A stretch of DNA of 64,000 bases. Source: Gracilariopsis chorda. Its lineage: Eukaryota > Rhodophyta > Florideophyceae > Gracilariales > Gracilariaceae. The DNA lies in the NCBI GenBank assembly GCA_003194525.1, contig NBIV01000262.1:53524-117523 (forward strand). The letters are read 5' to 3'. This document shows, in pieces, positions 32,482-62,659 of this stretch; positions within the stretch are counted from its first letter, which is position 1; every line of letters starts with the position of its first letter. The notes beneath the pieces are model-generated. The model made no database searches and had not been told where the DNA came from. It saw nothing but the letters and a program-made list of their open reading frames with translations. The position numbers and the translations under genes were made by a program.

Positions 32482-33217
32482 CGTCTGCTGACACCTGATT
32501 CAGGTATGCTTTCAGGAACTTCTGCTGTTCGTATGACGCAGTCCTAACACGAACCTTCTCCTCTGGCGTGAGGAATTCGTACTGTGCGATGATCTTCAAC
32601 CCATCCAGCATGGGGAATATGCATTTGGGTGCAACATGACCATGTAGGTAGCAGATGAAACATATCAGCTGGGCTGAAGCATCGGATGGTCAATTGTCCA
32701 CCCGACGTTGTGTTGTGTCCTTCCAACCCTGACGGGTGTGACGCTTACCGCTGTTCGCATAAGCGAGTGGAGCTGCCAGAACTTAAACGCCTCCATAACA
32801 CGCAGGGTATCCATCCGCGGTCGGAGTCGATGTTGGCCGGAGATACGTAGTTCCCAACGAGTCTGGGTCACTTCCAGCAAAATGGCTGTTGTCGTTATCA
32901 CTGGTTGCGGTTCTATCGCGCAATAGCGATAAAGAGGATGGTCTTTCTACCCTGAAGAGCTCTCGATGGTGTAGTTCTCGACGGATGTCGAGCACGATAA
33001 GTATCTCCCTCGGCTTGGGCAAATTGAACGAATTCGAGGTAGGTAACTCTCCGTTTCTTTTCGCGATGGCGAGCAACCAAATCTCTGGTAGCAGCATCAA
33101 GACCATCAACAGACATGGTGCAGCGTTCTTGGGCAGAATAAATAATACCAAAACGGTGAAACGCCTTTTTCAAATGGGTCAAATAAACCGTTTCGGTCGC
33201 TCCAGGCTTCTGCATTG

Positions 33218-33743
33218 TGTAGGAGAATAACCATTGGGCAGGTGCAGTGGTGAAGTAACCATGGGGCTGGGCTGGCAGAGGTCAGAGCATTGCTGGCTGA
33301 AATATTCCACGTGGCCAAGCCGGGTGCCTATGCAGGAGATACGAGGGGACAGTGCGAGTGCCAAGGCACTGTGGCCATAGGTTTAATTATGTAGCTAATT
33401 TTATGTAATTTGTCAGGATAGTGTCCGGAGGTCAGAGCGCCTCGCCAGCCATATAGGTTGAATTGAGTGCAGCCGATCTCTGAAGTGTAAGGACAAGCAC
33501 CCTCACCGTCTTCTTGCCGTCATATGCAGCCAGTAGGACTGCAAAGGCCTCCAAGCCATGGCTACCATTCTCCCAACCTGTAGGGACTTGAAATAGCGCC
33601 CAACCATTGCGCCTCGCTGCCAGTTGGTTCCCGCGTCACTAGTAGACCCAGTGGTTTGTCACCCCAGTGGTTTGCTCTCTGCTGCTACTAACCCCTAGTA
33701 GACTACTACCCCAGTTGACCAAAGGACGTAGTATTCTACTACA
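33218..33743. mobile_element. Solo LTR (526 bp) in element C gag, TSD CATTG
   Basis: Begins TGTAGGAGAATAACC, ends GTAGTATTCTACTACA; the ends form a short inverted repeat TGTAG..CTACA. Flanked by CATTG at 33213-33217 and 33744-33748. Removal with one TSD copy rejoins gag (DTMQKPGATETVY, compare DTRQRAGETETDY in element B). No homology to the A/B LTR family was seen. Confidence 0.85.
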
Positions 33744-34435
33744 CATTGTATCGCGCATAGTGAGTATCACATCTTGTATAGCATTACCAGTTGCATAGGA
33801 CCTGGGAAGGTATTGAACCGCTTCTGGTCAACAGGTTACCCCACCCTCCAATGCAAGGGAAGATCCAAGAACGGAATTGAACTGATCTTCAGCCATACCG
33901 GACAGAAAGTACGGTAGAGCGACATACGCTTTCGCTTCACTCATCCCGAGTATAGCAGTGCCCTGAACGAACTTCGCGAGGAAGTCAAGAACCAAGATTG
34001 GGTCTTCACCAGTAAGGTGACTCCGTCTCATTCTTTTGATACACTCCCTGACTTTCCCAGTTCCTCGTGACGATCGATCATTCGATGAATCGTTATGGCG
34101 ATAATATCGATACGATAACATTTTCTTGAAAAGAGGATTCGTCGGCTTCAGCTCTTTAAGGGTAAGGTGGCGCCGTCCCTTCTCGCAAGAGCGAATAACT
34201 CCCTGAGTGTGGTACGTAGCTTTAGAACGTGTCGCGCGAGATCTCCCATGATCGATATCGGAAATCGATGAATCCGAAGAGAAATCACTCGAGTGACTGT
34301 CACAGTCTGAACCTGATGAGTCCGAATGGATGCGAACTCCCTTTTTGGATTGAAGCTGACTTCGTTTGCACGAGCGGCGAATCGAAATAACCGATGCATC
34401 TTCTTCTTGAGCACGTGCGTCCACGGCTTCATGCT

Positions 34436-35259
34436 GTGGTGCAATGCCCCAAAAGGGAAAAACACCGAAAGACGTTCGGGATCTTCCTCTCACGAGGTGA
34501 ACCCAGTTGGGTAGAGCCCTCCCAGAGGTGTCACGGCGAAGCCGGTTTGTAGGACAAGGGACACCTGTCACGACTTGCGCAGGGAGGTGAAGGCGAAGAA
34601 TCGGTATCCGCGTGAGCGGGGTGTGATCCTCAGTAGAGGTATGTTTCCACGTAAGTGGGGGTGTGTGAGCGGATGCGCACACGAGGGCCGCGGATAGCGG
34701 GAGGTGCTACCCTAAAAAGGGGAAAAAGGAAGGGCGAAGAGGAGGAAGAGAGGGCGAAGTGAGGCGCGAGAGCGACGGGGACGAACGGCGATGCCGGTAA
34801 CAATATCCCTATACAGGGCGAAACACCAATGCAATTGGAACAATTATACTCCCAGTGATGGGTCCCTTTAGATGTGCAAGGGGGTTAGATGTCCCGTGGT
34901 TCACGGCGTTTCCCTCCAAGGAGGAGTAGAGCACGCGCACAAGCGGTAACAACTAGAGCCAATTCCCCAGGTTGGGGTCCCTTGTTGGGGAAGGTTTACT
35001 GGTGCGACGGCAGTGCGCCGTCGCACTAAGTACTAGCTTTCCAGAAATGGGTGTGAAAATAATAAATAGTATTAACTAAAGTACTCCACATTTCGTGGCA
35101 ACATCCACTACTGTGGCCAACCGCCAATTGACCCAAAACCGTGTCCCACGTGTCCATACCCACCATTGTTGGGCGTAGTTCATATACACACTACACAACC
35201 GATAATATCGGGAAAACGACCAAGTACCAGGAATCCCTCCCTGAGCGCGTTGCACTTCA
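34436..35259 (-). repeat. Element A 3' LTR (824 bp)
   Basis: Bounded by the TSD and by the polypurine tract. It contains a perfect 10-bp stem with 5-nt loop at 35002-35026 (GTGCGACGGC / GCCGTCGCAC) and many short stem-loops. Confidence 0.95.
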
Positions 35260-35272
35260 TATCCCCCCCTAA
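35260..35272 (-). promoter_or_regulatory. Polypurine tract of element A
   Basis: Minus strand TTAGGGGGGGATA immediately precedes the 3' LTR start TGAAGTGCAACG. It is the expected primer for plus-strand DNA synthesis. The same tract, one G longer, occurs in element B at 49619-49632. Confidence 0.85.
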
Positions 35273-35314
35273 GACGAGAAAACGACCGCGGACGCGGAGG
35301 ATTCCCAGACGAAA

Positions 35315-35365
35315 ATGGGTGATAAAAGCAAGTGCGCCGTCTCCGGTTCTTCTCTCCTGGCATAG
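35315..35365 (+). pseudogene. Antisense ORF stub of element A (internal deletion)
   Basis: The first 12 codons match the start of B's antisense ORF (MGDKS.CAVSGS). The sequence then jumps to the region just downstream of that ORF in B, leaving a 16-codon frame. Compared with B, about 740 bp (B 49711-50450) are missing. Confidence 0.85.
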
Positions 35366-35514
35366 CCAGCTATTGTAGTATAGTGTTGTGGGGAGCTAGC
35401 TGCTCCCTTGAATAAACTTTCCGGTTTAGAACGGTGATTCTCGTTTGAGTTCCCCGTTTTCGACGGACCTTGCCTTGTTATCCTTTCCTATCACCCTCCG
35501 CTCGCGCGGCAATG

Positions 35515-36612
35515 TTACCCAACTTGGGCATTAACCAGCGTAGCTGGGGCTGCCGTTCCCGTTTGAAGGTGGTATCGCACGACCTGCGACCGTGGGAGGT
35601 GTTCAATTGGCTCCCACGTATCCCCACTGGGGTCATACCCGTACCAGCGGACGCGGTATTGTAGAATACCATCCTCGTCCCAGGTGTGTCCGACAAGTCG
35701 GTCTACTACGAACTCTCGTTCGTAGACCTGCCGGCCGTGCCGGGTGGTGGTTGTATTCCCTTGCGAGGGCTGTCCGCTGTGCGGTGTATTGCCCCCATCC
35801 GGGTTGTCGGCGATGTCTCCGGCGTTGCCGTGCGCTGTCGTAGTGGCCAATGCTCATGCGGGAAAATATCCCTCAAGAGGGTGTGTGGCGTCACGGTTTT
35901 CACCCGCAAGTCATTCCCCAGAGGGGTGTCGTTGTTCCCGTCTTCACGGTAAGTCGGGCGAGCCGCCAGTCGGCGGGGGACTTGAACTCCGCGAGTGCGG
36001 TCTTCTTCGCGAACCGCGAGCTTGCGGGGTCTTTGCCGCGTATGCGGGAACGGCATTTGTGACATCCCTGCGGGGTCCCGTGCGACACGGTGATTGGTAA
36101 GCGTTCCGCCTCCCTGCCAGGTGCACGAGCGTGTTGCCTGGGGCTACCTCCGGTACACCGGTATTTTGGTCGGAATTCCCCTTTGGGGGGTGCCGGGCAG
36201 GTGCCGATGACACCCTTCTCAGGGGAATTGCCGCTAAGCGCGGTGCATCATCTCCATGAGGAGGAGCAGCGTCCGGTACGACCGGTTTCGAGCGTGCGAT
36301 GGCGCGCGTTTTTCCCGAGTTCCTCGGTTCTTCGCCGCAGCGTTGCGGGGGTTGGCGCAAATTATTCCCTGGAGCGGGGGCTTCGATTCCGTCAACGACG
36401 GGAGGCGTTTCCGTCGCTTGCGCGCCAGGGCCTGAAGCTTCGACTGCGGCTTGGCTGCCTTTTTCCCCAAGAGGGGTGTGGGTATTTCCCTGTGAGGCTG
36501 GCGTATCTGGGCGCCTCTTCTCCGGGGGGCGCGGGTCTGCTGGACCTAATTGAACCGCTTCTGCGGGGGCTTCTGCCAATGGCGGCTTCGATGCATCGCT
36601 CTGCCCAGGGGA
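35515..36612 (-). pseudogene. Element A pol C-terminus: spacer and chromodomain after a premature stop
   Basis: Pol reading resumes in the same frame directly after the TAA at 36613-36615 (SPGQSDASKPPLAEAPAEAV), shifts frame near 36000 and again near 35850. The chromodomain FVVDRLVGHTWDEDGILQY followed by RVRWYGYDPSGDTWEPIEHL is readable at 35515-35720. Chromodomains of chromoviruses bind histone marks and steer integration. In B the equivalent region is one open frame. Confidence 0.85.
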
Positions 36613-39600
36613 TTAGGGGCAATCGTCACCATACTCCCTTATCGGGGATCCTTCCCTGACAGGGTTGTGCGGTAGTTGCGCTTCAACTTCCCGTGTAGCA
36701 CGGTATATTTCCCGCGTTTGTGGCGATGCCTCCGGGGATGGATCGGGCGATTGCATTTCCGCTGCTGCGGTATTGGAGGGAGGCTTCTCGTTTTCCCGTG
36801 ACAAACGGTGTATTTGCCGCTTTTGCGGGGCCTGCGCGTCTGGTTCCTGTTGCACAGCACTACCGGGGAACGGAGGATTAGTGTCGCGTGACATACTCCG
36901 TGCTCCACGGTCAGTGTTCCGTATGTTACGGTGTGTTTCCCGTTGCGACGGCGATATCGTTCCTCGAAAACGAGTGTTCTCCTCCCCCTCCTTAGACGGA
37001 GCGGCGAGATAAGGGATAACATTCCCCGCTTGGCGGGTATAAATGCGCGCCAGTGGGGCGGGCGTGGTAGAGGCGGGCGCTGAGAGGCCCGAATTACCCG
37101 GCTGAGCCGGTGAGTCCGACAGGGTCGGTAGGTCTGAGAGTCCCCGGCTGGGGTGTGGTAGTACCGTAGGCCTAGTACTCCTGGATGATTCCGGTGTTTC
37201 AGAGTCCGAAGAAACGGGGTTGCCTGGATCCAGGAATACCTCTGACGAGGGAGGAGGGGCAAGGACAACACGATCACGGGAAATCCGTTCGTGCGTGTCG
37301 CCCATCTCTACCACGACCGTGTCGGTGTTCACAGAGATGACCTTGAATGGTCCATCCGCCACAGGCGAGAGTTTGTGGCGCTTCTCCCGTTCCGGGTTGT
37401 AGTACTCCTTCCTGATGAAGACGTAGTTATTCGCCCGAATCGGGGACAGTTTCCCTCGCAAGCGAGCATCAAAATCCCGCTTGTAAGCGGCTTGGGCCCG
37501 TGCCATAGACTTCCGCGCAGCGGGGACCAGCCTGGCAAGCCATTGCTTCCATTGCTGCCGGTAGATACCCACTGATGGGAAATTGTCCAAGGTAGCTTGG
37601 GGTTCCAGCGCCACAGGCGGGGGTGTTCTAGATAGAACCAACTCGAATGGCGAAACTCCGATAGTCCGGTGTACCTGCGTATTGTACGCGTAGGTTACCG
37701 CATCAGCGTACATGTCCCAGTTCTTTGGGTGGTCTGCGACGTAGGAACGTAACGCCGCGAGTAACGTCCGGTTAAACCGTTCAACTTGCCCATTACACTG
37801 GAGGTGGTAGGTAGTCGTGAAAAAGTTCTTGACATCCAGGATGCGACAAACACCCTGGAAGAACTTGCTCACCAACTGTTTCCCGTTATCGAAGAGCACC
37901 TCCACAGGGGGACCGTAGACGAAAATCCAGTGCGTCACCAGAGCCTGGGCCACCGTGAGAGCGGTTATCCTCCGAAGAGGGACAGTCCGTACCAGCTTAG
38001 AAAAGCGGTCGGTAATGACAAGTAGAAACTTTTTTCCACGTTTCGTGGTGAGTAGTGGTCCGAGAATATCGATCGCGATAAACTCCAGCGGCGCCCTTGC
38101 GGGGAATAGTTTCATCTTCTTCGCATTTTTGCGGAGCTTGACGCGATTCTTCGCGCATTCGCTACAAAACCGCACGGTTGCGTAGCAATCCACCGCCATG
38201 GCGGGCCAATAGAAATCCCTTCGCAGGGTTAGATAGAGTTTCCTCCCACCTGAGTGACCTCCAATGGGGGCGTAGTGTGATAGATGTAACACCCGCGACT
38301 GCAGGGAATGAGGTACCACGATCTGTGGGCGGGCTTCAACCTTCCTTACGAGGTAGCCTTTGTCGTTTACCCCGAAAGGGAGATCTTCACCACCGTTAAG
38401 ACGGGCACGAATCCTCGTAAAGAATGGGTCGCCGAATCGTTCTCGGATCATTTCTTCCGGTGATACCGGTACAAAGTTTCCCGGTAACGGGTTCTCAGAT
38501 TCATCTGGCGATCCGAGTAGTTCGTCAAAGTCAGCATCCTCGTCCCAGTTTTCTGGCCCAGCCTCGACGGCACATTCCGGATCATCCGGGTCTATGGCTA
38601 TGAAACATGGGACTTCATCATCCACCGTTGGGAGTGCTTCCCCACTTGTGGGTAACCGCGACAGGGCGTCGGCTTGGGTGTTCTGCGCGCCCTTTTTAAA
38701 AATGACTTGAAAGTCATATTCCGCCAGGCGGAGTCTGCAGCGCATGAGGCGTCCCGACGGGTCGGAGATATTCATCAACCACCTCAGCGAGGAATGATCC
38801 GTGTACACGGTGAAGTGAACTCCCATAAGGTAGGGGCGCAGATTGGTCATCGCCCATACGACGGCGAGGCACTCTTTCTCCGATACGGAGTAGTTCCGCT
38901 CATGAACATTGAGCGAGCGCGACCAATAACCAATTGGGTGTCGTTCCCCCTCGGGGGTGGTTTGAAAAAGAGCACACCCGACTTGGTAGTCGCTCGAGTC
39001 CGTATCTACGGAGTATGGCAACCCAAGTTTTGGGAGATGTAGGATTGGTGCTGATGTGACAGCCTCCTTCAAGGAGTTAAAGGCTTCCGATTGCTCGGGC
39101 GTAAATGTTCCCAGTTTTGGGGGGTTCCCCTTTCGCAACAACGCGTTCAGGGGCGCCGCGGTATCCGAAAAGTTCGGGATAAACCGTCGATAGACGTTGA
39201 CCAGCCCCAAAAAGGAGCGCAGTTCCGTTTGAGTACGGGGCTCTTTCGCCTCAACGAGGGATTTGACTCGAGCTTTCTCGATTGCTAACCGTTCAGGACG
39301 GATAATGTGACCCAGATACTTCACAGCATCGGTGAAAAACTCGCATTTACTCAACTTGAGGGTAATTCCCGCATCGCGAAGTACGCTCAGCACGTCTCGG
39401 ACGTGAGTGAGATGGTCGTCCAACGAGTTGGAGAAGTTGATAATATCATCAAGGTAGACCAGGGAACTCCGCCACTTAAAGCGGTTGAGTAGAATATCTA
39501 CTGCACGCTGAAAGGTGGCGGGGGCGTTGGTTAACCCAAATGGCGTCCGCTTGAAGCGGTACGTTCCTGCGTGGCAGGTGAATGCGGTTTTGTCGCGATC

Positions 39601-41172
39601 CTCCTGTCTGACAGGTACTTGCCAATATCCCCAATTGGCATCAAGGGCCGTGAACACGGTGGCGTCTCCAAGGGAGTCAATGCACTCGTCCATACGAGGG
39701 ATGGGGTACGTGTCCCTAACAGTCACGGCATTGAGCCGGCGGTAGTCGACACAGAACCTCCAGGTTCCGTCGGCCTTTAAAGCCAGTACAACTGGGGATG
39801 CCCAGGGTGATTGAGCGGGCTCAATCACATCTGCGTGGAGCATCTCGTCCACTTGGGACTGCTCCTCTTCCCGAGCTTTCGGACCTGCCCTGTAAGGGGG
39901 TTGTGCAACCGGTCGCGCACCGGGGATTAAATCAAACCGGTGTTCCGTTGCATTAATCTCGCCAAGCGAGCCATCCCACATTGTGGTGAATTCCCGTAAC
40001 ATTGTATGGAGCTTGTCGCAGTGCGACTCTGGCACGTGGCTGAAGTCCAGCGCTTCAAGTGCCTTTTCCGGATCAATCCGGTCGTTGCTCGATGGAGCAT
40101 TGTCCTGTGGAACAGGTGTGGTTCGCAATTCCGAGTTACTCGGTATTTTCGACGCTGAAGTAGCGCTTTCCTCCCCCTCCTTAGACTTGACGTCTTCGGA
40201 TGGCGGGGCGAACTCCTCAGAAGAGGTAGTAACTCTGAGTACATCGGCGGCTGTCATCTTCGTTGGCAGCATTCCCATAGGATGGGGGGTTACACTCCCA
40301 ATTACTTGGTGTTTTACCAGATACTGGGGGTGTTTGCCAAGGTTGGCAACCAATATCCGGAAAGGAACATCCGGGGAAATGGAGACAATTCCATTAGCCA
40401 GCGCCAGCTGGGATTTCTCGTACAACGAGGCGAGGGGTTGTATAACCCGAAGACCGTGTTGACGGGAATTTACCTGCACCCAGATTTGGGACTCAGGTGG
40501 TATAGAAACCAAGGCAGCGACGCGGAGCTTGGTGGACTCGCGGGACGCGGGTGGTGGTTCCTGCGCAGCAGGGAGCGGAACTTGTTTCCGAGAGGACCGC
40601 TTTAACGGGCGGCGAACAATCGGAACCGACGATCCGTCGTCAAGTTCTACACGCCTGAGGCGGGGCCTGATTGCGTCGACAAATCTGTCGCAGTAATCAC
40701 ATCCCAGTATGACTGGTGCTGCCAATGAACGGCAAACGATGCAGTCCAACTTCACCACAGAGGTACCAAGTCTCACGACGAGGTCTACTGTGTCCTCCGT
40801 TTGTAACGGATTGTTGTTCGCATCCGAAATGTCAGGGACCGCGTCAGAGCGGATACGAGACCGCACAAGCGGGGGTAACAATGATTCCACAACAAAGTTG
40901 GGGCCTGCACCTGTATCCAGGACGGTGAGAAACCTCACCATAAACTGGGGATCAAGACCAAGGTCGGCATAGACCTTATAGTTGCGCTTGGCCAAGACCA
41001 AGACTCTACCGGGAATCCGGGGATTTTTACTCCGTATCCACAGGCGACGCAACACACCGAGGTGCGCAGAGTCCGCGTCAGCGGTGTCTTTCCTCGAGAG
41101 GACTTTCACCGGGGAGCGAGGCGAGGACGCCTCGGGCGCCAACAGCCTCGTTTTTGAGGACGCCCCTCCCAA
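36613..41172 (-). CDS. Element A pol polyprotein (protease-RT-RNase H-integrase)
   Basis: 1519-residue open frame with no ATG at its 5' end (it opens at TTG and is open further upstream into gag), in the -1 frame relative to gag. Protease LDTGAGPNFV (about residue 86). RT: DYRRLNAVTVRDTYPIPRMD, PFGLTNAPATFQRA and catalytic YLDDI (about 574). RNase H: VDTDSSDYQVGCALFQ and VYTDHSSLRWLM. Integrase: HHCC zinc site with CSEC, DDE residues in FIAIDILGPL (about 1032), LFDNGKQ and NGQVERFNRTL, then GPFKVI. A Pro/Ser/Arg-rich spacer begins at about 1300. Stops at TAA 36613 before the chromodomain. Compared with B, RT reads IINFS for IIIFS and integrase HLQC for HPQC. Confidence 0.93.
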   Translation of the reverse strand: MGGASSKTRLLAPEASSPRSPVKVLSRKDTADADSAHLGVLRRLWIRSKNPRIPGRVLVLAKRNYKVYADLGLDPQFMVRFLTVLDTGAGPNFVVESLLPPLVRSRIRSDAVPDISDANNNPLQTEDTVDLVVRLGTSVVKLDCIVCRSLAAPVILGCDYCDRFVDAIRPRLRRVELDDGSSVPIVRRPLKRSSRKQVPLPAAQEPPPASRESTKLRVAALVSIPPESQIWVQVNSRQHGLRVIQPLASLYEKSQLALANGIVSISPDVPFRILVANLGKHPQYLVKHQVIGSVTPHPMGMLPTKMTAADVLRVTTSSEEFAPPSEDVKSKEGEESATSASKIPSNSELRTTPVPQDNAPSSNDRIDPEKALEALDFSHVPESHCDKLHTMLREFTTMWDGSLGEINATEHRFDLIPGARPVAQPPYRAGPKAREEEQSQVDEMLHADVIEPAQSPWASPVVLALKADGTWRFCVDYRRLNAVTVRDTYPIPRMDECIDSLGDATVFTALDANWGYWQVPVRQEDRDKTAFTCHAGTYRFKRTPFGLTNAPATFQRAVDILLNRFKWRSSLVYLDDIINFSNSLDDHLTHVRDVLSVLRDAGITLKLSKCEFFTDAVKYLGHIIRPERLAIEKARVKSLVEAKEPRTQTELRSFLGLVNVYRRFIPNFSDTAAPLNALLRKGNPPKLGTFTPEQSEAFNSLKEAVTSAPILHLPKLGLPYSVDTDSSDYQVGCALFQTTPEGERHPIGYWSRSLNVHERNYSVSEKECLAVVWAMTNLRPYLMGVHFTVYTDHSSLRWLMNISDPSGRLMRCRLRLAEYDFQVIFKKGAQNTQADALSRLPTSGEALPTVDDEVPCFIAIDPDDPECAVEAGPENWDEDADFDELLGSPDESENPLPGNFVPVSPEEMIRERFGDPFFTRIRARLNGGEDLPFGVNDKGYLVRKVEARPQIVVPHSLQSRVLHLSHYAPIGGHSGGRKLYLTLRRDFYWPAMAVDCYATVRFCSECAKNRVKLRKNAKKMKLFPARAPLEFIAIDILGPLLTTKRGKKFLLVITDRFSKLVRTVPLRRITALTVAQALVTHWIFVYGPPVEVLFDNGKQLVSKFFQGVCRILDVKNFFTTTYHLQCNGQVERFNRTLLAALRSYVADHPKNWDMYADAVTYAYNTQVHRTIGVSPFELVLSRTPPPVALEPQATLDNFPSVGIYRQQWKQWLARLVPAARKSMARAQAAYKRDFDARLRGKLSPIRANNYVFIRKEYYNPEREKRHKLSPVADGPFKVISVNTDTVVVEMGDTHERISRDRVVLAPPPSSEVFLDPGNPVSSDSETPESSRSTRPTVLPHPSRGLSDLPTLSDSPAQPGNSGLSAPASTTPAPLARIYTRQAGNVIPYLAAPSKEGEENTRFRGTISPSQRETHRNIRNTDRGARSMSRDTNPPFPGSAVQQEPDAQAPQKRQIHRLSRENEKPPSNTAAAEMQSPDPSPEASPQTREIYRATREVEAQLPHNPVREGSPIREYGDDCP

Positions 41173-41220
41173 AGGGGAGACTCCCTCAGTTAGTTTTCCG
41201 CCTTCGGCGGTGGGTTGGTT
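41140..41220 (-). promoter_or_regulatory. gag/pol junction: candidate -1 frameshift site with flanking hairpins
   Basis: Gag ends GCG GAA AAC TAA; pol is open in the -1 frame through this point. The heptamer GGAAAAC sits at the stop. A stem CCGCC-TTC-GGCGG lies just upstream and CTCCC-CTTT-GGGAG about 15 nt downstream. The layout is the same in element B (56166-56225). A downstream stem fits -1 frameshifting, but the heptamer is not canonical; stop-restart or a separate mRNA remain possible. Confidence 0.55.
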
Positions 41221-43346
41221 TCCTCGACAACGAGTGCTTCATCCCGTTGACGGGGGTTTCTATCCGCATAAGCGGGGGTTGCAACGGATGGTTGCGTGAT
41301 CTCTCGAATCGGGGTGTATGAAGCTTGCCACGCACGCGGGGTCTGTGGTAGGGCATGGGAAAAGTCCGTTCTAGCACGGAGGTAGGAAGCCGTCGGGACG
41401 GAACGTTTCTCTTCTGGAGTGAGGGCCTCATAATTGGCCACTACCTTGGCCATATCCTTCAGTGAACAAATACACTGAGGTGAGGTATGGCCATGGGCAT
41501 AGCACAGGTGGCAAATGAGAGCCAATACCGCGACACGCGGATTATTATTCCGAGTATCGGAGAAGCGAACCGCAAGGCGGGTGTAAGTCCATGCAGGCCG
41601 TTGATAACGGGAATGACCGTTTGAAAACGGGAGTCGTTGGGGTTGGACCCGACTGTTACCACCGTACAAAACGGAGTCTTCCGTTCCCGTATCACGGGTC
41701 ATCTCCGTCGTTGACGGCAAATCACTGGTGGGTATCGACAAAACATCCCCCTGCACTAAATGCACGGTATCAAATCCCTGTCCAGGGTTCCCATCCGCAG
41801 TGAGCGGGAGTGAGGAAGCTTCGCTTTCCAGCAACAACGCCTTGGCGGATTTAGACCGATTGTTCGGAGTTCTTGCACGAAGTGCATCCCCTTCCACTCG
41901 GGCGTGTTGGACCGGCTCGAGATAGGTGATCCTCCGCTTGTCCTCCCGATAACGGGTAACTGAACTCCGGATTGCCGGGTAAAGACCATCGATGAACATG
42001 GTACTGCGCTCCCCGGCGGGGTATACGTTACCACATCTGTGGAAAGCCTTGTCAAGGCGCACCGAGTAATCGGTCTCGGTCTCTCCAGCACGCTGGACGA
42101 TAGCCTGCTGAATAGCGGTGTTTGTGGCATAGGAGCGCAGAAGATACTGCACAGCCTCCGGCCAGCAAGTAACCCCTCCCTCGGAGGCACGAGAAGATCC
42201 TCTGATAGAGTTGTATTGGTCCTCCGCCACTCCCCGTAAGAAATACGGTAAAGCCAAATAGGCTTGACCCTCATTCATACCGAGGATATCGGCCTCCGCT
42301 ACAAAGCGGGATAGGAAATCCAGTACTAGGACTGGATCCTCTCCAGTAAAATACTGGTTGCGGAGCGAGAGCTGCATTCGCTTAATGCATTCTCGCACAT
42401 TTCCCGTACCACAGGGCGTACGTCCAAGTGACGAATCTCCGAGCCGGTAGTACCGGTATGATGAAAGCTTCCGGTAATCCGGGTTTGTCGGTTTCAATTC
42501 CCGGAGACCGGGGTATCTTCTCCCCTTCTGGCGGACTCGGATCACACCTTCAGTGGCCGATGACCGCTTCGAGCGGGAGGAGTAGTCTCGCTTCTCGTCC
42601 TCCGAGTCGGAGTCCGAGGAGCTCGAGCTAACCAAATGGTTTCGGGATGAGTCCGACGATGTCGAAGAATCAGAGTCCGAATATTTTGGGTGGTGTTTCC
42701 GTCGATGACGGCGTTTCTTCTTCCCAGCAAGCTGGTCTTTGTGCGATGCCTCGCTTACTGGATCATCCGGGGATGGTTTGTCCATGAGGACGAACTGCTC
42801 CAGCGTCTCCAGGCGGGCACCAATCCGATCAAATCGGGCTTCAACTCCTTCGATGAAGGTGGCGGGTTGTCCCAAACTCTCCAACACGGAGTTGACGTCA
42901 GACCGTAAAATACGGAGTTCCTCGGCGACCTCCTTTACGGGGCTTGCCAAGACCACCTCTTGGAGGGATTTTAGTTCCCTTACAAGGGTGTCATGGGCGG
43001 TCCACAGTGCGCGGACCTGGGATTCCAGGGAAATCCCCTGGGGGGTGTTATCGCCCGTTCCACGGGGGCTTGAAGCCGCGACAGCGGGAGCAGGCTGGGG
43101 TGCCTGGGGCACTGCGGCAACAGCCGGAGTCGATGCTGCATTCCCCTGCGGGGGTGATAACGAGGGCAAAAGGAGGTTCCGGGGTTCCCGGTCGGGGGTA
43201 TCATTCCGCAATGAAGCGGCGCCAGCACGGCTGGAACTTGTCCGTATAGGGATACGGGGTACAAACCGAACTTCGGAAGTGTCCGCGTTGTCGCGGGAGC
43301 GACTACGCGTAACCATTGGCTTCGCATCGGAGGGATTTCTCGACAT
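41190..43346 (-). CDS. Element A gag polyprotein
   Basis: 718 aa, ATG at 43346. N-terminal basic and disordered segment, then a coiled-coil-like region (SQVRALWTAHDTLVRELKSL), a Ser/Asp-rich linker, and a conserved capsid-like core (ECIKRMQLSLRNQYFTGEDP, VLDFLSRFVAEADILGM, ALPYFLRGVAEDQYNS). Near the C-terminus a CCHC zinc knuckle, CHLCYAHGHTSPQC, should bind RNA. The start codon lies in the loop of a 6-bp stem (43336-43352). Gag forms the virus-like particle in which reverse transcription occurs. Intact, though B's copy has DTRQ-type residues missing here (IVQRAGETETD). Confidence 0.92.
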   Translation of the reverse strand: MSRNPSDAKPMVTRSRSRDNADTSEVRFVPRIPIRTSSSRAGAASLRNDTPDREPRNLLLPSLSPPQGNAASTPAVAAVPQAPQPAPAVAASSPRGTGDNTPQGISLESQVRALWTAHDTLVRELKSLQEVVLASPVKEVAEELRILRSDVNSVLESLGQPATFIEGVEARFDRIGARLETLEQFVLMDKPSPDDPVSEASHKDQLAGKKKRRHRRKHHPKYSDSDSSTSSDSSRNHLVSSSSSDSDSEDEKRDYSSRSKRSSATEGVIRVRQKGRRYPGLRELKPTNPDYRKLSSYRYYRLGDSSLGRTPCGTGNVRECIKRMQLSLRNQYFTGEDPVLVLDFLSRFVAEADILGMNEGQAYLALPYFLRGVAEDQYNSIRGSSRASEGGVTCWPEAVQYLLRSYATNTAIQQAIVQRAGETETDYSVRLDKAFHRCGNVYPAGERSTMFIDGLYPAIRSSVTRYREDKRRITYLEPVQHARVEGDALRARTPNNRSKSAKALLLESEASSLPLTADGNPGQGFDTVHLVQGDVLSIPTSDLPSTTEMTRDTGTEDSVLYGGNSRVQPQRLPFSNGHSRYQRPAWTYTRLAVRFSDTRNNNPRVAVLALICHLCYAHGHTSPQCICSLKDMAKVVANYEALTPEEKRSVPTASYLRARTDFSHALPQTPRAWQASYTPIREITQPSVATPAYADRNPRQRDEALVVEETNPPPKAEN

Positions 43347-43430
43347 GAGAAAATACCGTTACGACGGGAAACGATCACGGAACTTCCGGTGAATGGAAAC
43401 AAACCTCGTAAGAGGGAAAACAAAAACCGA

Positions 43431-43448
43431 TTCTAGGTCGGGAGACCA
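43431..43448 (-). promoter_or_regulatory. Primer-binding site of element A
   Basis: Minus strand TGGTCTCCCGACCTAGAA, two nt inside the 5' LTR end. TGG complements a tRNA 3' CCA. B has the identical site (58443-58460) and C a diverged one, TGGTTTCCTGACCTAGAA (45003-45020), so the family uses one primer tRNA. Confidence 0.85.
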
Positions 43449-43450
43449 CT

Positions 43451-44272
43451 TGTGCAATGCCCCAAAGGGGAAAAACACCGAAAGACGTTCGGGATCTTCC
43501 TCTCACGAGGTGAACCCAGTTGGGTAGAGCCCTCCCAGAGGTGTCACGGCGAAGCCGGTTTGTAAGACAAGGGACACCTGTCGCAACTTGCGCAGGGAGG
43601 TGAAGGCGAAGAATCGGTATCCGCGTGAGCGGGGTGTAATCCTCAGTAGAGGTATGTTTCCACGTAAGTGGGGGTGTGTGAGCGGATGCGCACACGAGGG
43701 CCGCGGATAGCGGGAGGTGCTACCCTAAAAAGGGGAAAAAGGAAGGGCGAAGAGGAGGAAGAGAGGGCGAAGTGAGTCGCGAGAGCGACGGGGACGAACG
43801 GCGATGCCGGTAACAATATCACTATACAGGGCGAAACACCAATGCAATTGGAACAATTATACTCCCAGTGATGGGTCCCTTTAGATGTGCAAGGGGGTTA
43901 GATGTCCCGTGGTTCACGGCGTTTCCCTCCAAGGAGGAGTAGAGCACGCGCACAAGCGGTAACAACTAGAGCCAATTCCCCAGGTTGGGGTCCCTTGTTG
44001 GGGAAGGTTTACTGGTGCGACGGCAGTGCGCCGTCGCACTAAGTACTAGCTTCCCAGAAATGGGTGTGAAAATAATAAATAATATTAACTAAAATACTCC
44101 ACATTTCGTGGCAACATCCACTACTGTGGCCAACGGCCAATTGACCCAAAACCGTGTCCCACGTGTCCATACCCACAATTGTGGGGCGTAGTTCATATAC
44201 ACACTACACAACCGATAATATCGGGAAAACGATCAAGTACCAGGAATCCCTCTCTGAGGGCGTTGCACTTCA
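43451..44272 (-). repeat. Element A 5' LTR (822 bp)
   Basis: Right copy. Differs from the left LTR by scattered substitutions and small indels, including loss of TGG near its inner end (TGTGCAATG against TGTGGTGCAATG). Carries the 10-bp stem at 44015-44039. An AT-rich TATA-like run (about 44070-44095) precedes that stem in the direction of transcription. Confidence 0.95.
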
Positions 44273-45022
44273 CATGCATACGGATTGTTTCTTCAAGAAT
44301 ATCCAGACGTGAGTGCATTCGAACTGTCGCTTCACTAAGTTCATCGTTAAATATCTGATAACCGTTCATAAAATACTCGGGTGTACCAAGATGTTCCAAA
44401 ATAGATTTCACGTCCTGTCTCAAACGACGTAGATCGTTAGAGAAATCCCGAACCTGGACGTCTTCAACCTTACGCCTAAGCTCGGTTACAATCTGCAATA
44501 GTTTCACATGTGTTGCAGCAGCGACATCCAGGCGAGACTCGAGCCGAGATAACTCCGAAGCAACATTGCGACCCGGAATAACCGCTGACGGTGTCACAAC
44601 CACAGGTTGATTAACCATTGCGACTTCTCGCAGACCTGAAGCAACTGAAGGTGCTCTCTAATCATCCGAAACGACCTCATCAGTAGGTGTATTCTCGACA
44701 GTAGAACCACGCGAGTGCGGTGCAGCAGACTGAGGAATGCCTGACGATCTGGCACGAGAACCCTTAGAGGGTGGTGGCATTTCTCAATTGGCCAGCCAAT
44801 CCACTCAGAGTACTGAAGAGCTCAATTACAAGATATCCGAAGAACGGAGCACAAAACACAAAACAAATCCCCACCAAGAACACTCGAACACCACACGATG
44901 GTCCAAATGATCACCAGTTCTTCGACTTCCACGTGAGTCTTCCTTCTGCGAATTGATCCAATTATGGTTATTCCGTTGAAGTAACCACGCACGTTTCAAC
45001 CTTTCTAGGTCAGGAAACCACT

Positions 45023-45957
45023 TGTAGTGCAAACCCCGAAGGTTGGGTATCACACTCAAGGTGTCCGGGGCCTTGCTCCCTGTGGAGGCAGACCCAGTAA
45101 CAGAGCCCTCTGTATACCTTTAATAAGGGGGTAACTCCGTAAGTATTTCAGATTGACAACAGACGTGGATAATGAAAGGTGAACCGAAGCCAGAAAGACG
45201 GTGAAACCAGAGACCAGTGTGCCACGCGATGCAGTGCTTTGGAATATAACCGGTAAAGGGTGCCTTCCGAGGACGGGGAAAAACCACCCGATGGGTCGTG
45301 CGGAAATCGGAAATAGACCCGACGGAGGGTGCAAATTCACGAGATGTAGCGGACAAATTACCCATACAGGGGCGAGACCAGTACCACACGGTAGATAATG
45401 TCACCCGACAATTATAACAGAGAGTATCTGTAGGTTTAACGAGCAGGTGAATTGGGAGAACCGAATGCGGTGACGCTCTGCGAGGAGTAGTACATGGTGC
45501 AACGACGTCACAATCCAAAGCCCGATACCTCAGATCAAACTGAACAGTTATGAATGACCAAAGTCTCGGGTTAACTTTACTTAGTGATCGCGACGATGAG
45601 GTCGCGCTCACCTTAGTAGGTACACTACCATAATAAATTATTATAATTAACTACAATAGTGCAAACCTCCTCAGGTCCACAAACGTGGCCAGGCCGGTGT
45701 CAGGCACCCTGAGCGGTCAAACCACGTAAAACATAACAGTACAGCATAGTGCTGTCGCACATGCGCACACGCGTCCACTCATCCTGCAATCAATTCTAGA
45801 TTCCTACCTTCCTATGTGAAAATTCACACAATAAACCATCCCATTGGCATCAACTCGTACGGGTCCAACTCATATACGGTAGAGCCGTCACGGTAACCGC
45901 TTTGCACTCCTATGAGTAGCATCATCGCAATTTACACGCATTCCGCGTTGCGCCACA
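45023..45957 (-). repeat. Element C 5' LTR (right)
   Basis: Starts TGTAGTGC beside the primer-binding site and ends CGTTGCGCCACA against the TSD CGATC (45958-45962). The interior is distantly alignable with A/B LTRs (CCATACAGGGGCGAGACCA against CTATACAGGGCGAAACACC; AATAATAAATTATTATAATT against AATAATAAATAATATTAACT). Confidence 0.8.
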
Positions 45958-45962
45958 CGATC

Positions 45963-48811: not shown

Positions 48812-49618
48812 TGTGGTGCAATGCCCCAAAGGGGAAAAACACCGAAAGACGTCCGGGATCTTCCTCTCACGAGGTGAACCCAGTTGGGTAGAGCCCTCCC
48901 AGAGGTGTCACGGCGAAGCCGGTTTGTAAGACCATGGACACCTGTCGCGACTCGCGCAGGGAGGTGAAGGCGAAGAATCGGTATCCGCGTGAGCGGGGCG
49001 TGATCCTCAGTAGAGGTATGTTTCCACGTAAGTGGGGGTGTGTGAGCGGATGCGCACACGAGGGCCGCGGATAGCGGGAGGTGCTACCCTAAAAAGGGGA
49101 AAGAGGAAGGACGAGTGGGTCGCGAGAGCGACGAGTAGATACGGCAATGCCGGTGGACAGGACTCCCTATACAGGGCGAAACACCAATATGATTGGAACA
49201 ATTAGTACTCCCAATGATGGGTCTCCTTTAGATGTGCAAGGGGGGTGAACTTCCGTACACTACGGTGCTTCCCTCCAAGGAGGAGTTGAGAACACGCGGA
49301 GGCGGTAAAGCTCAGAGCCAATTCCCCAGGTTGGGGTCCCTTGTTGGGGAAGGTTTACTGGTGCGACGGCAGTGCGCCGTCGCACTAAGTACTAGCTTCC
49401 CAGAAATGGGTGTGAAAATAATAAATAAAATTAACTAAAATACTCCACATTCCGTGGCAACATCCACTACTGTGGCCAACCGCCAATTGACCCAAAACCG
49501 TGTCCCACGTGTCCATACCCACCATTGTGGGGCGTAGTTCATATACACACTACACAACCGATAATATCGGGAAAGCGTTCAAGTACCCAGAATCCCTCCC
49601 TGAGGGCGTTGCACTTCA
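48812..49618 (-). repeat. Element B 3' LTR (807 bp)
   Basis: Left copy, next to the polypurine tract. Perfect 10-bp stem at 49361-49385. Its left end truncates the pogo-like transposase. Confidence 0.95.
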
Positions 49619-49674
49619 TATCCCCCCCCTAAGACGGGAAAACGACCGCGGACGCGGAGGATTCCCAGACGAAA

Positions 49675-50424
49675 ATGGGTGATAAAAGCGCGTGCGCCGT
49701 CTCCGGTTCTCCGGTAAATCCCTCTGCACCAGAGTCAATACCTCCTGCTACTGCAGCTGTCATTTCCTCGCCTCGCCTTCGCGCTTCCTCGTCACCGAGC
49801 GTACTCCGACAAACAACATCAACGACCCTCGAAGAGGGAGAAATGAACAACGACAACAACATCAACAACCACAGCCAACCTCCGAGGTCTCTCGGGCGAT
49901 ATACCACCGGTTTCCGGTCGGTTCCCCTGCCTCAGGGCGATCAACCTCCGGTACAACCGGGAAATACGGCTGCTGAAGCCGACCATCCCTTCGCATTACC
50001 ACCTTCGGTGGGATCCTCCGAGGAGGCGCGCGAGCTTCGCGATACGCCCCGGCATGTGCCGGAAGACCACCCGGTGGGGTACGTCGATTCCGACGACTAC
50101 TACCGCGCATACGGCGGGGATGACCCAATGGTCGATAACGAACCGGAAGAACCCGGGGAGATGGACGTAGAGGAAACCGGCGCTAGCGCGGAAGCTTTCC
50201 CAGAGGGGGCATCTCCGGCCGAGCCGGCTGCTGACCCTTCGGCGGCAAGTGCCGGACCTTCTATCCCCAGCGGGGTGACGGCGAATGAAAACGAAATCAT
50301 CGCACGTTTCCTCCGGGGTGCCGGTCTTAGCGCTGCCGAGGTATCGGGGGATGTCACCACCACGGCGGACGCGTTGGCCTACCGCCTCGCTGGTGGTTAC
50401 GCCCCGGACGATGGGGGTGAGTGA
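49675..50424 (+). CDS. Antisense ORF of element B (249 aa), unknown function
   Basis: ATG at 49675 (context AAAATGG), stop at 50424, on the strand opposite gag-pol. It lies between the 3' LTR (ends 49618) and the pol stop (50616) and does not overlap pol. Composition: N-terminal Ser/Pro/Asn-rich part, then a strongly acidic middle (VPEDHPVGYVDSDD, GGDDPMVDNEPEE) and an Ala/Gly-rich helical end (NEIIARFLRGAGLSAAE). No known domain, signal peptide or membrane segment seen. The acidic block and order are recognisable in element C; A has lost the ORF by deletion. The 3' LTR lies directly upstream and could supply an antisense promoter. Function unknown. Confidence 0.7.
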   Translation: MGDKSACAVSGSPVNPSAPESIPPATAAVISSPRLRASSSPSVLRQTTSTTLEEGEMNNDNNINNHSQPPRSLGRYTTGFRSVPLPQGDQPPVQPGNTAAEADHPFALPPSVGSSEEARELRDTPRHVPEDHPVGYVDSDDYYRAYGGDDPMVDNEPEEPGEMDVEETGASAEAFPEGASPAEPAADPSAASAGPSIPSGVTANENEIIARFLRGAGLSAAEVSGDVTTTADALAYRLAGGYAPDDGGE

Positions 50425-50615
50425 AACCTCTGGTCCAGTTTCCTGGTTCCTCTTTCCCTGGCTATGCCAGTTAGTGTAGTGTAGTATTGTGGGGAGCTAG
50501 CTGCTCCCCTGAATAAACTTTCCCGTTTAGAACGGTGCTTCTCGGTTGAGTTCCCCGTCTTCGACGGACTTTGCCTTGTTATCCTTTCCTTTCGCTCTCC
50601 GCTCGCGCGGCAACG

Positions 50616-53600
50616 TTACCCAACTTGGGCATTGACCAGCGTGGCTGGGGCTGCAGTTCCCGTCTGACGGTGGTATCGCAGAACCTGCGACCGTGGGAGG
50701 TGTTCAATTGGCTCCCACGTATCCCCACTGGGGTCGTACCCGTACCAGCGGACGCGGTATTGTAGAATACCATCCTGGTCCCAGGTGTGTCCGACAAGTC
50801 GGTCTACTACGAACTCTCGTTCGTAGACCTGCCGGCCGTGCCGGGTGGTGGTTGTAATCCCTGGCGAGGGTTGCCCGCGGTGCGGTATAATGTCCCTTAG
50901 CAGGGTGTTCGGCGATAACTCCGACGTTGCCGTGCGCTGTCCTAGTGGCCGCTGCTCATGCGGGAAAATATCCCTCAAGAGGGTGTGTGGTGCCACGGTT
51001 TTCACCGGCAAGTCGTTGCCCAGAGGGGTGTCGTTGTTTCCGTCTTCACGGTAGGCCGGGCGAACCGCCAGTCGGCGGGGGACTTGGGTTCCGCCTTCGC
51101 GGTTGAGCGCATGAACCGCGAGTTTGCGGGAAGATGACCGCTCCTGCGGGATCGGCATTTCCACAATCCCCTGGGGGGTCCCGTGCGACACGGTGATTGG
51201 GTGGCAAACCGCCTCCCTGCCAGGCGCACGAGCGCTCTGCACCATACGTTCCGGCGATGCCGTGGTGTCCCCGGCTACTGACGGGTTGCCTGGGGCTAAC
51301 TCCGGTACACCGGTATTTTGGTCAAAATTCCCCTCTGGGGGGTTCCGGGCAGGTGCCGATGACACCCTTTTCAGGGGAATTGCCGCTGAGCGCAGTGCAC
51401 CATCTCCATGAGGAGGAGCAGCGTCCGGTACGACCGGTTTCGAGCGTGCGATGGCGCGCGTTATTCCCGAGTTCCTCGGTTCTTCGCCGCAGCGATGCGG
51501 GGGTCGGCGCAAATTATTCCCCGTAGCGGGGGCTTTGATTCCGTCAACGACGGGAGGCGTTTCCGGTGCTTGCGAGCCAGGGCTTAAAGCTTCGATTGCA
51601 GCTTGGCCGCCTTTTTCCCCAAGAGGGGTGTGGGTATTCCCCTGTGAGGCCGGCGTATCTGGGCGCCCCTTCTCCGCAGGGCGCGGGTCTGATCGACCTG
51701 ATTGAACCGCTTCCGCGGGGACTTCCGCCAACGGCGGCTTCGAGGCATCGGGCGATTGCCTTTCCGCTGCTGCGGTATTGGAGTGAGGCTTCTCGTTTTC
51801 CCGTGACAAACGGTGTATTTGCCGCTTTTGCGGGGCCTGCGCGTCTGGTTCCTGTTGCACAGCACTGCTCGGGAACGGGGGATTAGTGTCGCGTGACATA
51901 CTCCGTGCTCCACGGTCAGTGTTCCGTATGTTACGGTGTGTTTCCCGTTGCGACGGTGATATCGTTCCTCGAAAACGAGTGTTCTCCTCCCCCTCCTTAG
52001 ACGGAGCGGCGGGATAAGGGATAACATTCCCCGCCTGGCGGGTATAGATGCGCGCCAGTGGGGCAGACGTGGTAGGGGCGGGCGCTGAGGGGCCCGAATT
52101 ACCCGGCTGAGCCGGTGAGTCCGACAGAGTCGGTAGGTCTGAGAGTCCCCGGCTGGGGTGTGGTAGTACCGTAGGTCTAGTACTCCCGGATTGTTCCGGT
52201 GTAGCGGAGTCCGTGGAAACGGGGTTGCCTGGATCCAGTACTACCTCTGACGAGGGAGGAGGGGCGAGGACAACACGATCACGGGAAATCCGTTCGTGCG
52301 TGTCCCCCATCTCTACCACGACAGTGTCGGTGTTAACAGAGATCACCTTGAAGGGTCCATCCGCCACAGGTGAGAGTTTGTGACGCTTCTCCCGTTCCGG
52401 GTTGTAGTATTCCTTCCTGATGAAGACGTAGTTATTTGCCCGAATCGGGGATGGTTTTCCTCGCACGCGAGCGTCAAAATCCCGCTTGTAAGCGGCTTGG
52501 GCCCGTGCCATAGACTTCCGCGCAGCGGGGACCAGCTTGGAAAGCCATCGCTTCCATTGCTGCCGGTAGATACCCACAGATGGGAAATTGTCCAAGGTAG
52601 CTTGGGGTTCCAGCGCCACAGGCGGGGGTGTTCTAGATAGAACTAACTCGAATGGCGAAACTCCGGTAGTCCGGTGTACCTGCGTATTGTACGCGTAGGT
52701 TACCGCATCAGCGTAGAGATCCCAATTCGTTGGGTGGTCAGCGACGTAGGAACGTAACGCCGCGAGTAACGTCCGGTTAAACCGTTCAACTTGCCCATTA
52801 CACTGGGGGTGGTAGGTAGTCGTGAACAAGTTCTTGACATCCAGGATGCGACAAACATCCTGGAAGAACTTGCTCACGAACTGCTTCCCGTTGTCAGAGA
52901 GCACCTCTACAGGGGGACCGTAGACAAAAATCCAGTGCGTCACCAGAGCCTGGGCCACCGTGAGAGCGGTTATCCTCCGAAGAGGGACAGTCCGTACCAG
53001 CTTAGAAAAGCGGTCGGTAATGACAAGTAGAAACTTGTTTCCACGTTTCGTGGTGAGTAATGGTCCGAGAATATCGATCGCGATAAACTCCAGCGGCGCC
53101 CTTGCGGGGAATAGTTTCATCTTCTTCGCATTTTTGCGGAGCTTGACGCGATTCTTCGCGCATTCGCTACAAAACCGCACGGTTGCGTAGCAATCCACCG
53201 CCATGGCGGGCCAATAGAAATCCCTTCGCAGGGTTAGATAGAGTTTCCTCCCACCTGAGTGACCTCCAATGGGGGCGTAGTGTGATAGATGTAACACCCG
53301 CGACTGCAGGGAATGAGGTACCACGATCTGTGGGCGGGCTTCAACCTTCCTTACGAGGTAGCCTTTGTCGTTTACCCCGAAAGGGAGATCTTCACCACCG
53401 TTAAGACGGGCACGAATCCTCGTAAAGAATGGGTCGCCGAATCGTTCTCGGATCATTTCTTCCGGTGATACCGGTACAAAGTTTCCCGGTAACGGGTTCT
53501 CAGATTCATCTGGCGATCCGAGTAGTTCGTCAAAGTCAGCATCCTCGTCCCAGTTTTCTGGCCCAGCCTCGACGGCACATTCCGGATCATCCGGGTCTAT

Positions 53601-56176: not shown

Positions 56177-56193
56177 AGGGGAGACTCCCTCAG

Positions 56194-58358: not shown

Positions 58359-58463
58359 GAGAAAATACCGTTACGACGGGAAACGATCACGGAACTTCCG
58401 GTGAATGAAAACAAACCTCGTAAGAGGGAAAGCAAAAACCGATTCTAGGTCGGGAGACCACTT

Positions 58464-61765: not shown

Positions 61766-61770
61766 TGTAC

Positions 61771-62545: not shown

Positions 62546-62659
62546 TGTACGACGTATAAAATATAACACACAAACGAACGACAATATCACTGCCCTTAGG
62601 CAATGAGTCTACATTCAATACTCATGCTGTGCTACCTAAATAGATCAAGATAGTCAAAG

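Follow-up and report, generated by a model that had tools for sequence, protein, structure and literature searches.

How LTR retrotransposons select their own RNA from cellular RNA is only partly understood. In yeast Ty3 the NC domain of Gag is critical for packaging, and UTRs or POL sequences are needed (portions of PMC11381356 and PMC4974528); for both Ty1 and Ty3 the portion of PMC4974528 used here gives the sequences required for packaging as not precisely defined. In the phage MS2, the coat protein is taken to recognize dispersed stem-loops (PMC6281560, in excerpt). The Ty3 elements described here, named A, B and F, and their related families D and E belong to the same element class as yeast Ty3; the cited portions on the latter (PMC11381356, PMC4974528) give short palindromes close to the 5' end a role in dimerization and contain no account of hundreds of fixed-foot hairpins. 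Their likeness to MS2 lies in the many short stem-loops with a common recognition feature found genome-wide, coding parts included, but in MS2 (PMC6281560, in excerpt) the apical loop together with a bulge contains this feature, whereas here it is located at the stem foot, together with the flanks in A/B and D, and not in the loop. Free loops, a larger excess and a foot that varies by family are further differences from MS2, and the genome carrying these putative signals is that of an LTR retrotransposon; MS2 counted in the same way gave 124 stems against 64.3 expected, with CG as its top foot (12/2.9), a weaker excess than in A and B. Our literature search found no comparable hairpin-studded retrotransposon, and the hairpin array has the look of a label, so far undescribed, that the element carries on its own RNA.

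Element A occupies positions 34435..44272 of the window (the whole 64,000-nt stretch of DNA that was analyzed), on the minus strand like all of the features given below, and was recognized by self-BLAST, by Pfam matches to RT, RNase H and integrase, and by hairpin counts. It is flanked by the direct repeat CATGC, which was read off the adjoining sequence at 34430-34434 and 44273-44277, and its 5' LTR (43452..44272) is 98.05% identical to its other LTR (34439-35259). The gag ORF of 718 aa (41190..43346) has a CX2CX4HX4C motif of the CCHC type, spotted by eye (CHLCYAHGHTSPQC), with no Pfam match above the cut-off and no PDB relative. The pol ORF of 1519 aa (36613..41172) encodes RT, RNase H and integrase according to Pfam, and a spacer (35260..36612) separates it from the 3' LTR. 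Element B, of the same family as A, was recognized by the same means at 48812..59271, with LTRs at 48812-49619 and 58464-59271 that are 99.6% identical. Two LTRs around gag and pol and the RT-RNase H-integrase order identify these young elements as Ty3/gypsy LTR retrotransposons; Pfam detected integrase and a chromodomain (4e-10) in B and no chromodomain in the A pol ORF. Chromoviruses, the chromodomain Ty3/gypsy elements, share the LTRs, gag, this domain order and the chromodomain of B, but the present elements stand apart from them by their hairpin array and, in A, by the spacer of 1.35 kb that follows the pol ORF and precedes the 3' LTR. A is nested within an older, degraded Ty3 element, F, whose first part (25500..34434, left border approximate) includes an RVT_1 fragment and whose second part lies beyond A (44273..45960, right border approximate); 25530-25792 and 45023-45285, one in each part of F, match at 87% in self-BLAST.

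Perfect stems of at least 4 bp with loops of 2-6 nt were counted against dinucleotide shuffles. In A we found 430 such stems against 180.4+-12.3 in the shuffles (z 20), and in B 479 against 196.8 (z 20), perfect 4-bp stems being enriched 2.4-fold and 5-bp stems about fourfold in both; the host sequence at 9-18 kb had 170 against 156.7 (z 1.2). The excess was present in non-coding parts of A such as the 5' LTR (40 stems against 12.3) and the spacer (55 against 26.2), and hairpins ran along the whole of the gag and pol ORFs, where shuffles that kept protein and codon usage gave far fewer stems of at least 5 bp (47 in gag against 10.2, maximum of 60 shuffles 20; 73 in pol against 19.7, largest shuffle 28). 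Three of four host ORFs fell inside the range of such codon-preserving shuffles, and the TCP-1 ORF was slightly above it (35 stems of at least 4 bp against 24.9, largest 34). Hairpins of the CC type in A numbered 180, against 17.4 with 3-mer counts kept and 19.9 with 4-mer counts kept, and a simple composition, codon or k-mer effect is ruled out by these four kinds of shuffle. The excess in A lies chiefly in loops of 3 and 4 nt (114/31.5 and 111/28.8), with chance numbers at 7 nt and above, and stems of at least 7 bp are weakly enriched (8 against 3.5 in A, 10 against 3.9 in B). A preliminary description, made from the sequence alone, had claimed that the Ty3 elements are studded with short stem-loops and the host genes are not, and had proposed shuffled controls as a check. 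All 16 stems that it named are present and the controls bear the claim out for A and B, codon-preserving ones for A included, with little or no excess in the host. Its details needed adjustment: the stem placed near 25605 lies at 25607, three stems assigned to a pol spacer lie inside the pol ORF, and a 98-bp LTR stretch singled out for six stems does contain them with a modest excess when taken alone (7 against 2.0, z 3.2). The longer stretch that it had highlighted from the start of gag into the LTR (43054..43557) holds 13 non-overlapping CC-type hairpins.

Most of the excess, which the same description had put down to stems of 4-6 bp in general, comes from one unit of 12-13 nt (range of spans 11-14) that is composed of CC, 2-3 paired bases, a loop of 3-4 nt, 2-3 paired bases and GG. 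One LTR plus the internal part of A (9,013 nt) contains 171 non-overlapping CC hairpins, about 19 per kb or one in some 50 nt across LTR, gag, pol and spacer, and the array stops at the element ends; B has 220, a count that takes in both LTRs. For A and B together the CC foot was found 163 times against 8.5 expected at span 12 and 139 against 7.6 at span 13, and the GG foot 8/8.1 and 11/9.0 times at these spans and 15/6.5 at span 11; in A alone GG...CC feet are hardly enriched (19 against 11.7). Arms and loops are diverse, the commonest 5-nt arm being seen six times. The base 3' of the CC hairpin on the sense strand of A is an A in 84/171 cases (p 6e-14), and its mirror image, a T before the hairpin, is at background level (31/171). 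This preference is not a codon effect, because it is also found in the LTR, where A follows 10/19 hairpins in one copy. The commonest linkers are 5-14 nt long and the hairpin centers are about 20-21 nt apart in A and B, where the earlier description had a stem every 10-25 nt; this 20-21-nt mode exceeds uniform placement, but gap-permuted versions have one at least as strong, and no significant periodicity was seen in D, E or F. A has an excess of two further feet as well, and counts for A and B together gave 35/8.0 for CG at span 11 and 24/3.4 for CT at span 13, an observation that counts against the account favored below.

The foot differs between families, with CC in A (166/13.1) and D (51/3.4), TC (24/3.5) together with CC (21/3.7) in E, and AC in F (55/9.8). 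The flanks differ too, D having C at +1 in 24/51 and T at +2 in 23/51 hairpins and F having no clear flank preference. What had been taken for an older hairpin-bearing element C belongs to F, and the hairpins are there with mostly AC...GT feet: the first part of F has 206 stems of at least 4 bp against 126.8 expected, with 45 AC feet against 9.6 at 26-34 kb, and the second part has 50 stems against 24.7, with 16 AC and 3 CC hairpins. Between F and B (45960-48811) there is a moderate stem excess (66 against 44.0, z 3.3; 0 CC and 6 AC hairpins), and a slight one at 59272-64000 (z 1.6 and 2.1). Elsewhere in the genome all 60 loci of the same lineage that were counted (L009-L068, a set that leaves L001-L008 aside) showed 1.97-3.07 times the shuffled stem count. 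No hairpin excess was found in a Copia fragment, in two other Ty3 lineages (about 34% and 42-43% protein identity) or in a Helitron region of this genome, and together with the host sequence at 9-18 kb these rule out a genome-wide or host process. A search of viral contigs with a few peptide patterns, which may have left out near records, found no relatives.

The turnover of the hairpins was followed among 31 copies by sorting the variants outside a recombinant block by the number of copies that carry them. CC hairpins were broken by 62/297 singletons, by 10/77 variants in 2-3 copies and by 1/38 variants in at least four copies, a depletion (Fisher 0.0037) that rests on small numbers (1/38) and on copies of shared ancestry. 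Among synonymous variants only, the fractions were 24/111 and 1/27 (p 0.028); with five feet pooled the fall was weaker (78/297, 13/77 and 4/38), and control stems with a G foot were broken by 7.1, 9.1 and 5.3% of the variants in the same three classes. In the recombinant block, where the test is not polarized, the 289 variants in at least four copies included 24 that lost a hairpin, 24 that gained one and 10 that kept it. At about 25% divergence both arms were unchanged in 11/24 and 10/20 CC stems against 18-19% of matched positions, and between families in 13-22% against 2-4%. We relied on the comparison of singleton and shared variants; rates of substitution for arms, loops and linkers are biased, as one of the copies under comparison serves to define the stems. 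Compensatory changes, put forward earlier as a second check, gave a weak result: the pairs were few and uneven (13 against 4.0 expected in one direction, 2 against 5.2 in the other), with 19-26 against 11.6-22.3 between families. The ratio of one-off to perfect excess (A 0.85, B 0.61, D 0.16, E 0.35 and 0.69, dead F 1.20) runs in the direction expected from decay and is not decisive. The hairpins behave as if kept by selection during replication, although copying repair would give the same allele result, and spreading seems to be reduced in copies that have lost hairpins.

We tentatively favor dispersed recognition hairpins in the element's own single-stranded nucleic acid, with its Gag as the reader and packaging as the use, an account somewhat short of being probable outright. 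Each hairpin has 4-5 perfect base pairs, a free loop of 3-4 nt, a fixed family-specific foot and unpaired flanks (in A/B, CC...GG followed by A), and would most likely act in the genomic RNA. Single hairpins would be interchangeable, appearing and vanishing as the sequence drifts, and their density would be held by selection as hairpin-poor copies leave fewer offspring. Gag, the most likely reader, would bind the array cooperatively and package its own RNA, ignoring host RNA and that of sister families with another foot. An RNA-borne code for packaging or structure, suggested in the preliminary description, fits best because the stems are perfect, the flanks strand-specific and the feet family-specific, and because the hairpins occur in one Ty3 lineage of those examined and few of the variants shared by many copies break a CC hairpin; with compensatory change weak, the suggestion is partly supported. 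One competitor, which needs no function, is quasi-palindrome correction, in which a fold-back of reverse transcriptase at short imperfect palindromes lets one arm serve as template for the other, so that hairpins are made and repaired. Such copying accords with a clear excess confined to perfect Watson-Crick stems and with hairpins arising throughout the element, coding or not, and its repair would also make breaking variants rare among those found in many copies. It should however leave changes in one arm only, which were not in excess (29/190 stems differing at two or more arm sites, from two CC block comparisons, 4/19, and six family comparisons, 25/171; matched-position fractions 0.145-0.274), and GG...CC feet, which should be equally stable, are hardly enriched. 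It also leaves unexplained the family-specific feet and flanks and the lack of hairpins in other Ty3 lineages and in Copia; we regard it as distinctly unlikely.

That the hairpins act in single-stranded cDNA of either strand, where they might for instance be nucleocapsid sites and keep it ordered or protected until the second strand is made, appears unlikely, and the functional strand is probably RNA. One count gave more A.C than G.T near-misses on the sense strand of the living families (in A 36/18.2 against 23/15.8), A.C being G.T on the opposite strand, and folding energy is similar for both strands (mean z -1.09 and -0.97), but the difference is slight, a second count did not repeat it (in A 121/117.8 against 101/94.6) and D was reversed there. 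G.U pairs on the sense strand show no excess, and tolerance of such pairs is uninformative as a test of RNA against DNA, because MS2 RNA has no G.U excess either. A general pressure on RNA folding or stability with no specific reader recalls the genome-scale ordered RNA structure of RNA viruses, a pairing excess that is not tied to conserved positions; an RNA-wide pairing excess is shared, but here it consists of one short unit with a sequence-specific foot. Energies of 100-nt windows are indeed below those of shuffles in A, B and D (mean z -1.09, -0.94 and -0.64) and near zero in the host (-0.17 and 0.16), yet E (-0.37) and F (-0.18) are near host level despite clear hairpins, and such a pressure, which would favor any stable stem, sits poorly with the weak enrichment of long stems and of GG feet; it seems very improbable. 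Escape from small-RNA silencing, another suggestion of the preliminary description, whereby a hairpin in many 21-nt stretches would fold guides and targets on themselves, is in our estimation quite improbable; the center spacing and a density kept despite the turnover of positions between families would suit it, but a fixed foot and family differences in foot and flank are not predicted and the feet are left unexplained, short stems of all kinds cover 45-47% of A and B and so leave many 21-mers open, and Copia, for which at least 150 matches were scored in this genome, lacks hairpins in the fragment examined. Tiny mobile palindromes occur in some algal organelle genomes, and their spread by insertion, also raised in the preliminary description, would account for a density that is high whether or not the sequence is coding. 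It is scarcely credible here, since the arms and loops are diverse instead of near-identical, homologous sites differ mostly by substitution and not through an inserted unit, and other element lineages examined lack the hairpins.

A further version of the packaging account is possible, if doubtful: the hairpins would form an end-to-end barcode whose flanks and CC, TC/CC or AC foot identify the family. The matching Gag would read this tag and let each family package its own RNA and avoid being parasitized by related families, with the barcode written over coding sequence and selection acting on density and not on position. The pattern is strong enough to be searched for with a short script in any genome. 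If recognition by Gag is true, packaging specificity would become testable by comparing sister Gags and feet within one genome, and a retroelement would be employing the strategy of dispersed signals that has been proposed for small RNA viruses, with a second code laid over its coding sequence.

The two young Ty3 elements of one family in the window, A and B, carry far more short stems than their composition would produce. Counts of perfectly paired stems of at least 4 bp with loops of 2-6 nt, set against dinucleotide shuffles of 200-nt pieces (40 each), gave 430 stems in A vs. 180 in the shuffles and 479 vs. 197 in B; for stems of at least 5 bp the figures were 178 vs. 44 and 187 vs. 50, and the result for A was unchanged under shuffles keeping 3-mers or 4-mers. 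In a control that leaves protein and codon usage unchanged (60 shuffles) stems of at least 5 bp numbered 47 vs. 10.2 in gag and 73 vs. 19.7 in pol of A. The preliminary description had called these elements studded with stem-loops and the host genes at 9-18 kb unlike them, and both statements hold: all 16 stems that it named are present in the sequence, A and B exceed the dinucleotide controls as do gag and pol of A the codon-preserving one, and the host genes have 170 stems of at least 4 bp vs. 157 in dinucleotide shuffles, with three of four host ORFs within the codon-shuffle range and TCP-1 barely above it (35 vs. 24.9 at 4 bp, largest shuffle 34).

Element A spans 34435-44272 and reads in sense on the minus strand. 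Its LTRs share 98.05% identity, and it carries a gag ORF of 718 aa and a pol ORF of 1519 aa with RT, RNase H and integrase domains. It is flanked by a 5-bp duplication, CATGC, and nested within F, an older and degraded Ty3 element (about 25.5-34.4 kb and 44.3-46.0 kb). Element B (48812-59271) has LTRs 99.6% identical and a chromodomain; comparison of its flanks for a 5-bp target duplication gave no match between the sides. In the 91 Mb assembly (1,081 contigs) its RT-region protein has at least 53 scored matches at 94-100% identity, B itself counted, these counts being lower bounds. The genes of the window are eukaryotic in look (TCP-1 chaperonin, ORC3). An LTR of B starts within an ORF (47936-48877) with Tc5-type HTH and DDE_1 transposase domains, and a Helitron-like N-terminal domain (22903-23472) and a PIF1-like helicase ORF (46025-46963) are possible Helitron remains. 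The stretch 45960-48811, which holds helicase and transposase ORFs, has moderately more stems than expected (66 vs. 44.0), none with the CC foot described below, and is possibly a further part of F or a different family. At 62662-62996 there is a tandem array of a 142-bp unit holding short palindromes such as AAGTGGGC-TAC-GCCCACTT.

The excess in A sits in arms of 4-6 bp and in loops of 3-4 nt (114 observed against 31.5 expected, and 111 against 28.8), loops being at chance level from 7 nt upward. Stems aligned on their ends showed a 5' foot, or outermost pairs, of CC and a 3' foot of GG. Among maximal stems of at least 4 bp pooled from A and B, a CC foot was found 163 times at span 12 (8.5 expected), 139 at span 13 (7.6), 57 at span 11 (8.9) and 44 at span 14 (8.0); for a GG foot the same spans gave 8 (8.1), 11 (9.0), 15 (6.5) and 5 (8.8), and CG at span 11 (35 against 8.0) and CT at span 13 (24 against 3.4) were in excess as well. 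The arm letters and the loop are thus free to vary, and the foot and total span almost constant. In the sense strand of element A, adenine is the first base 3' of the hairpin in 84 of 171 cases and the second in 74 of 171 (background 0.23), and in one LTR 10 of 19 hairpins have A directly after them; the mirror-image flank, T before the hairpin, stands at background (31/171). The flanks are therefore strand-specific. No description of such an array in any retrotransposon was found in the titles and abstract openings of the open-licence papers searched.

CC hairpins (CC, two or three paired bases, a 3-4-nt loop and the complement ending in GG) number about 19 per kb in A, and their density falls to host level beyond A and B. 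Linkers of 5-14 nt make up 62 of 186 in A. Centre distances of 20-21 nt are favoured in A and B over uniform placement (0/200 nulls as high), though permutation of the gaps scored as high in 53/200 and 30/200; no significant period was found in F or in the related Ty3 families D and E. All four LTRs also share one identical hairpin of 10 perfect base pairs closed by a 5-nt loop, GTGCGACGGC...GCCGTCGCAC (35002-35026, 44015-44039, 49361-49385 and 59013-59037), the other stems being far shorter; it is perhaps a dimerization or 3'-end signal.

Elsewhere in the genome, 60 of 60 loci, 30 found by RVT_1 matches (L039-L068) and 30 by the A/B search (L009-L038; L001-L008 left out), had stem counts 1.97-3.07 times those of shuffles (five per locus). 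By CC density the RVT_1 loci were D-like (7/30) or E-like (23/30). The families were compared in detail on one locus each, L040 for D and L044 for E, whose protein is 67-69% identical to A and to one another, and both exceed the codon control (31 vs. 12.3 and 37 vs. 13.1). D keeps the CC foot (51 against 3.4) with other flanks, T before the hairpin in 20/51 and C (24/51) then T (23/51) after it; the feet of E are TC (24 against 3.5), CC (21 against 3.7) and AC (9 against 2.8), and a later fragment was E again, 98% identical. F has AC (55 against 9.8) and TC (28 against 10.4) and no clear flanks; at the borders of nested A the foot changes from AC to CC and back to AC. No excess was found in the same genome in a fragment of Copia pol (L069, 35 stems vs. 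33), in Ty3 lineages at about 34% (L072, 39 vs. 34.7) and 42-43% identity (L073, 22 vs. 25.9) or in a Helitron region (36 vs. 35.6), nor under the codon control in L069, L072 and L073.

Variants were compared among 31 copies of the A/B family, counting A and B themselves, with singletons, which would be mostly post-insertion, as the neutral yardstick. At sites outside a recombinant block, CC hairpins were broken by 62/297 singletons, 10/77 variants in two or three copies and 1/38 in at least four (Fisher p = 0.0037 for singletons against the last class, 0.0062 against all shared variants, 0.028 each for synonymous sites only); G-foot stems showed no such fall (7.1, 9.1 and 5.3%), and five feet pooled a weaker one (78/297, 13/77, 4/38). 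The copies form two haplotypes (17/31 and 14/31), about 25% apart in 3' pol and 0-3% upstream, which indicates recombination between lineages. The block, at about 3900-5496 in sense coordinates of L010 and L011, has equal CC-hairpin density in these two copies (29 and 28 in 1,596 nt). Across its divergence both arms are unchanged in 11/24 and 10/20 CC stems (matched positions 0.19 and 0.18), and between families in 5-8 of 28-55 scored stems (13-22% vs. 2-4% at matched positions), gapped stems being set aside. Most stems differ from family to family, and compensatory change, which the preliminary description had proposed to look for, proved scarce across families; density is thus kept and positions are not. 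A repair process in each replication cycle could mimic part of this conservation and of the allele pattern, and is kept as a rival explanation. Among stems with at least two differing arm sites, 29/190 had changed in a single arm alone, not above matched positions, so the hairpins do not seem to come mainly from one-arm copying.

As to what reads the hairpins, strand-specific flanks would not be expected from recognition of duplex DNA, and arbitrary self-complementarity would be readable solely in a single strand. Wobble pairs are not enriched in the element hairpins, and since the same is true of MS2 RNA, their count does not tell RNA from cDNA. Folding energies lie only moderately below those of shuffles, at a mean z of -1.09 in A and -0.37 in E, and pressure on structure alone would leave the foot unfixed. 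The Gag of A gave no family model above cut-off and no relative with a solved structure; inspected by eye, it shows a CCHC-type motif along with a basic stretch. Passages of a review of Ty1/Ty3 encapsidation describe the NC domain of Ty3 Gag as critical for packaging, and the sequences important for Ty1/Ty3 packaging as not precisely defined (PMC4974528). We therefore tentatively name Gag as the likeliest reader, with slightly less than even confidence. Among the lineages compared here a single one carries the hairpin trait, an indication that the element itself encodes the reader.
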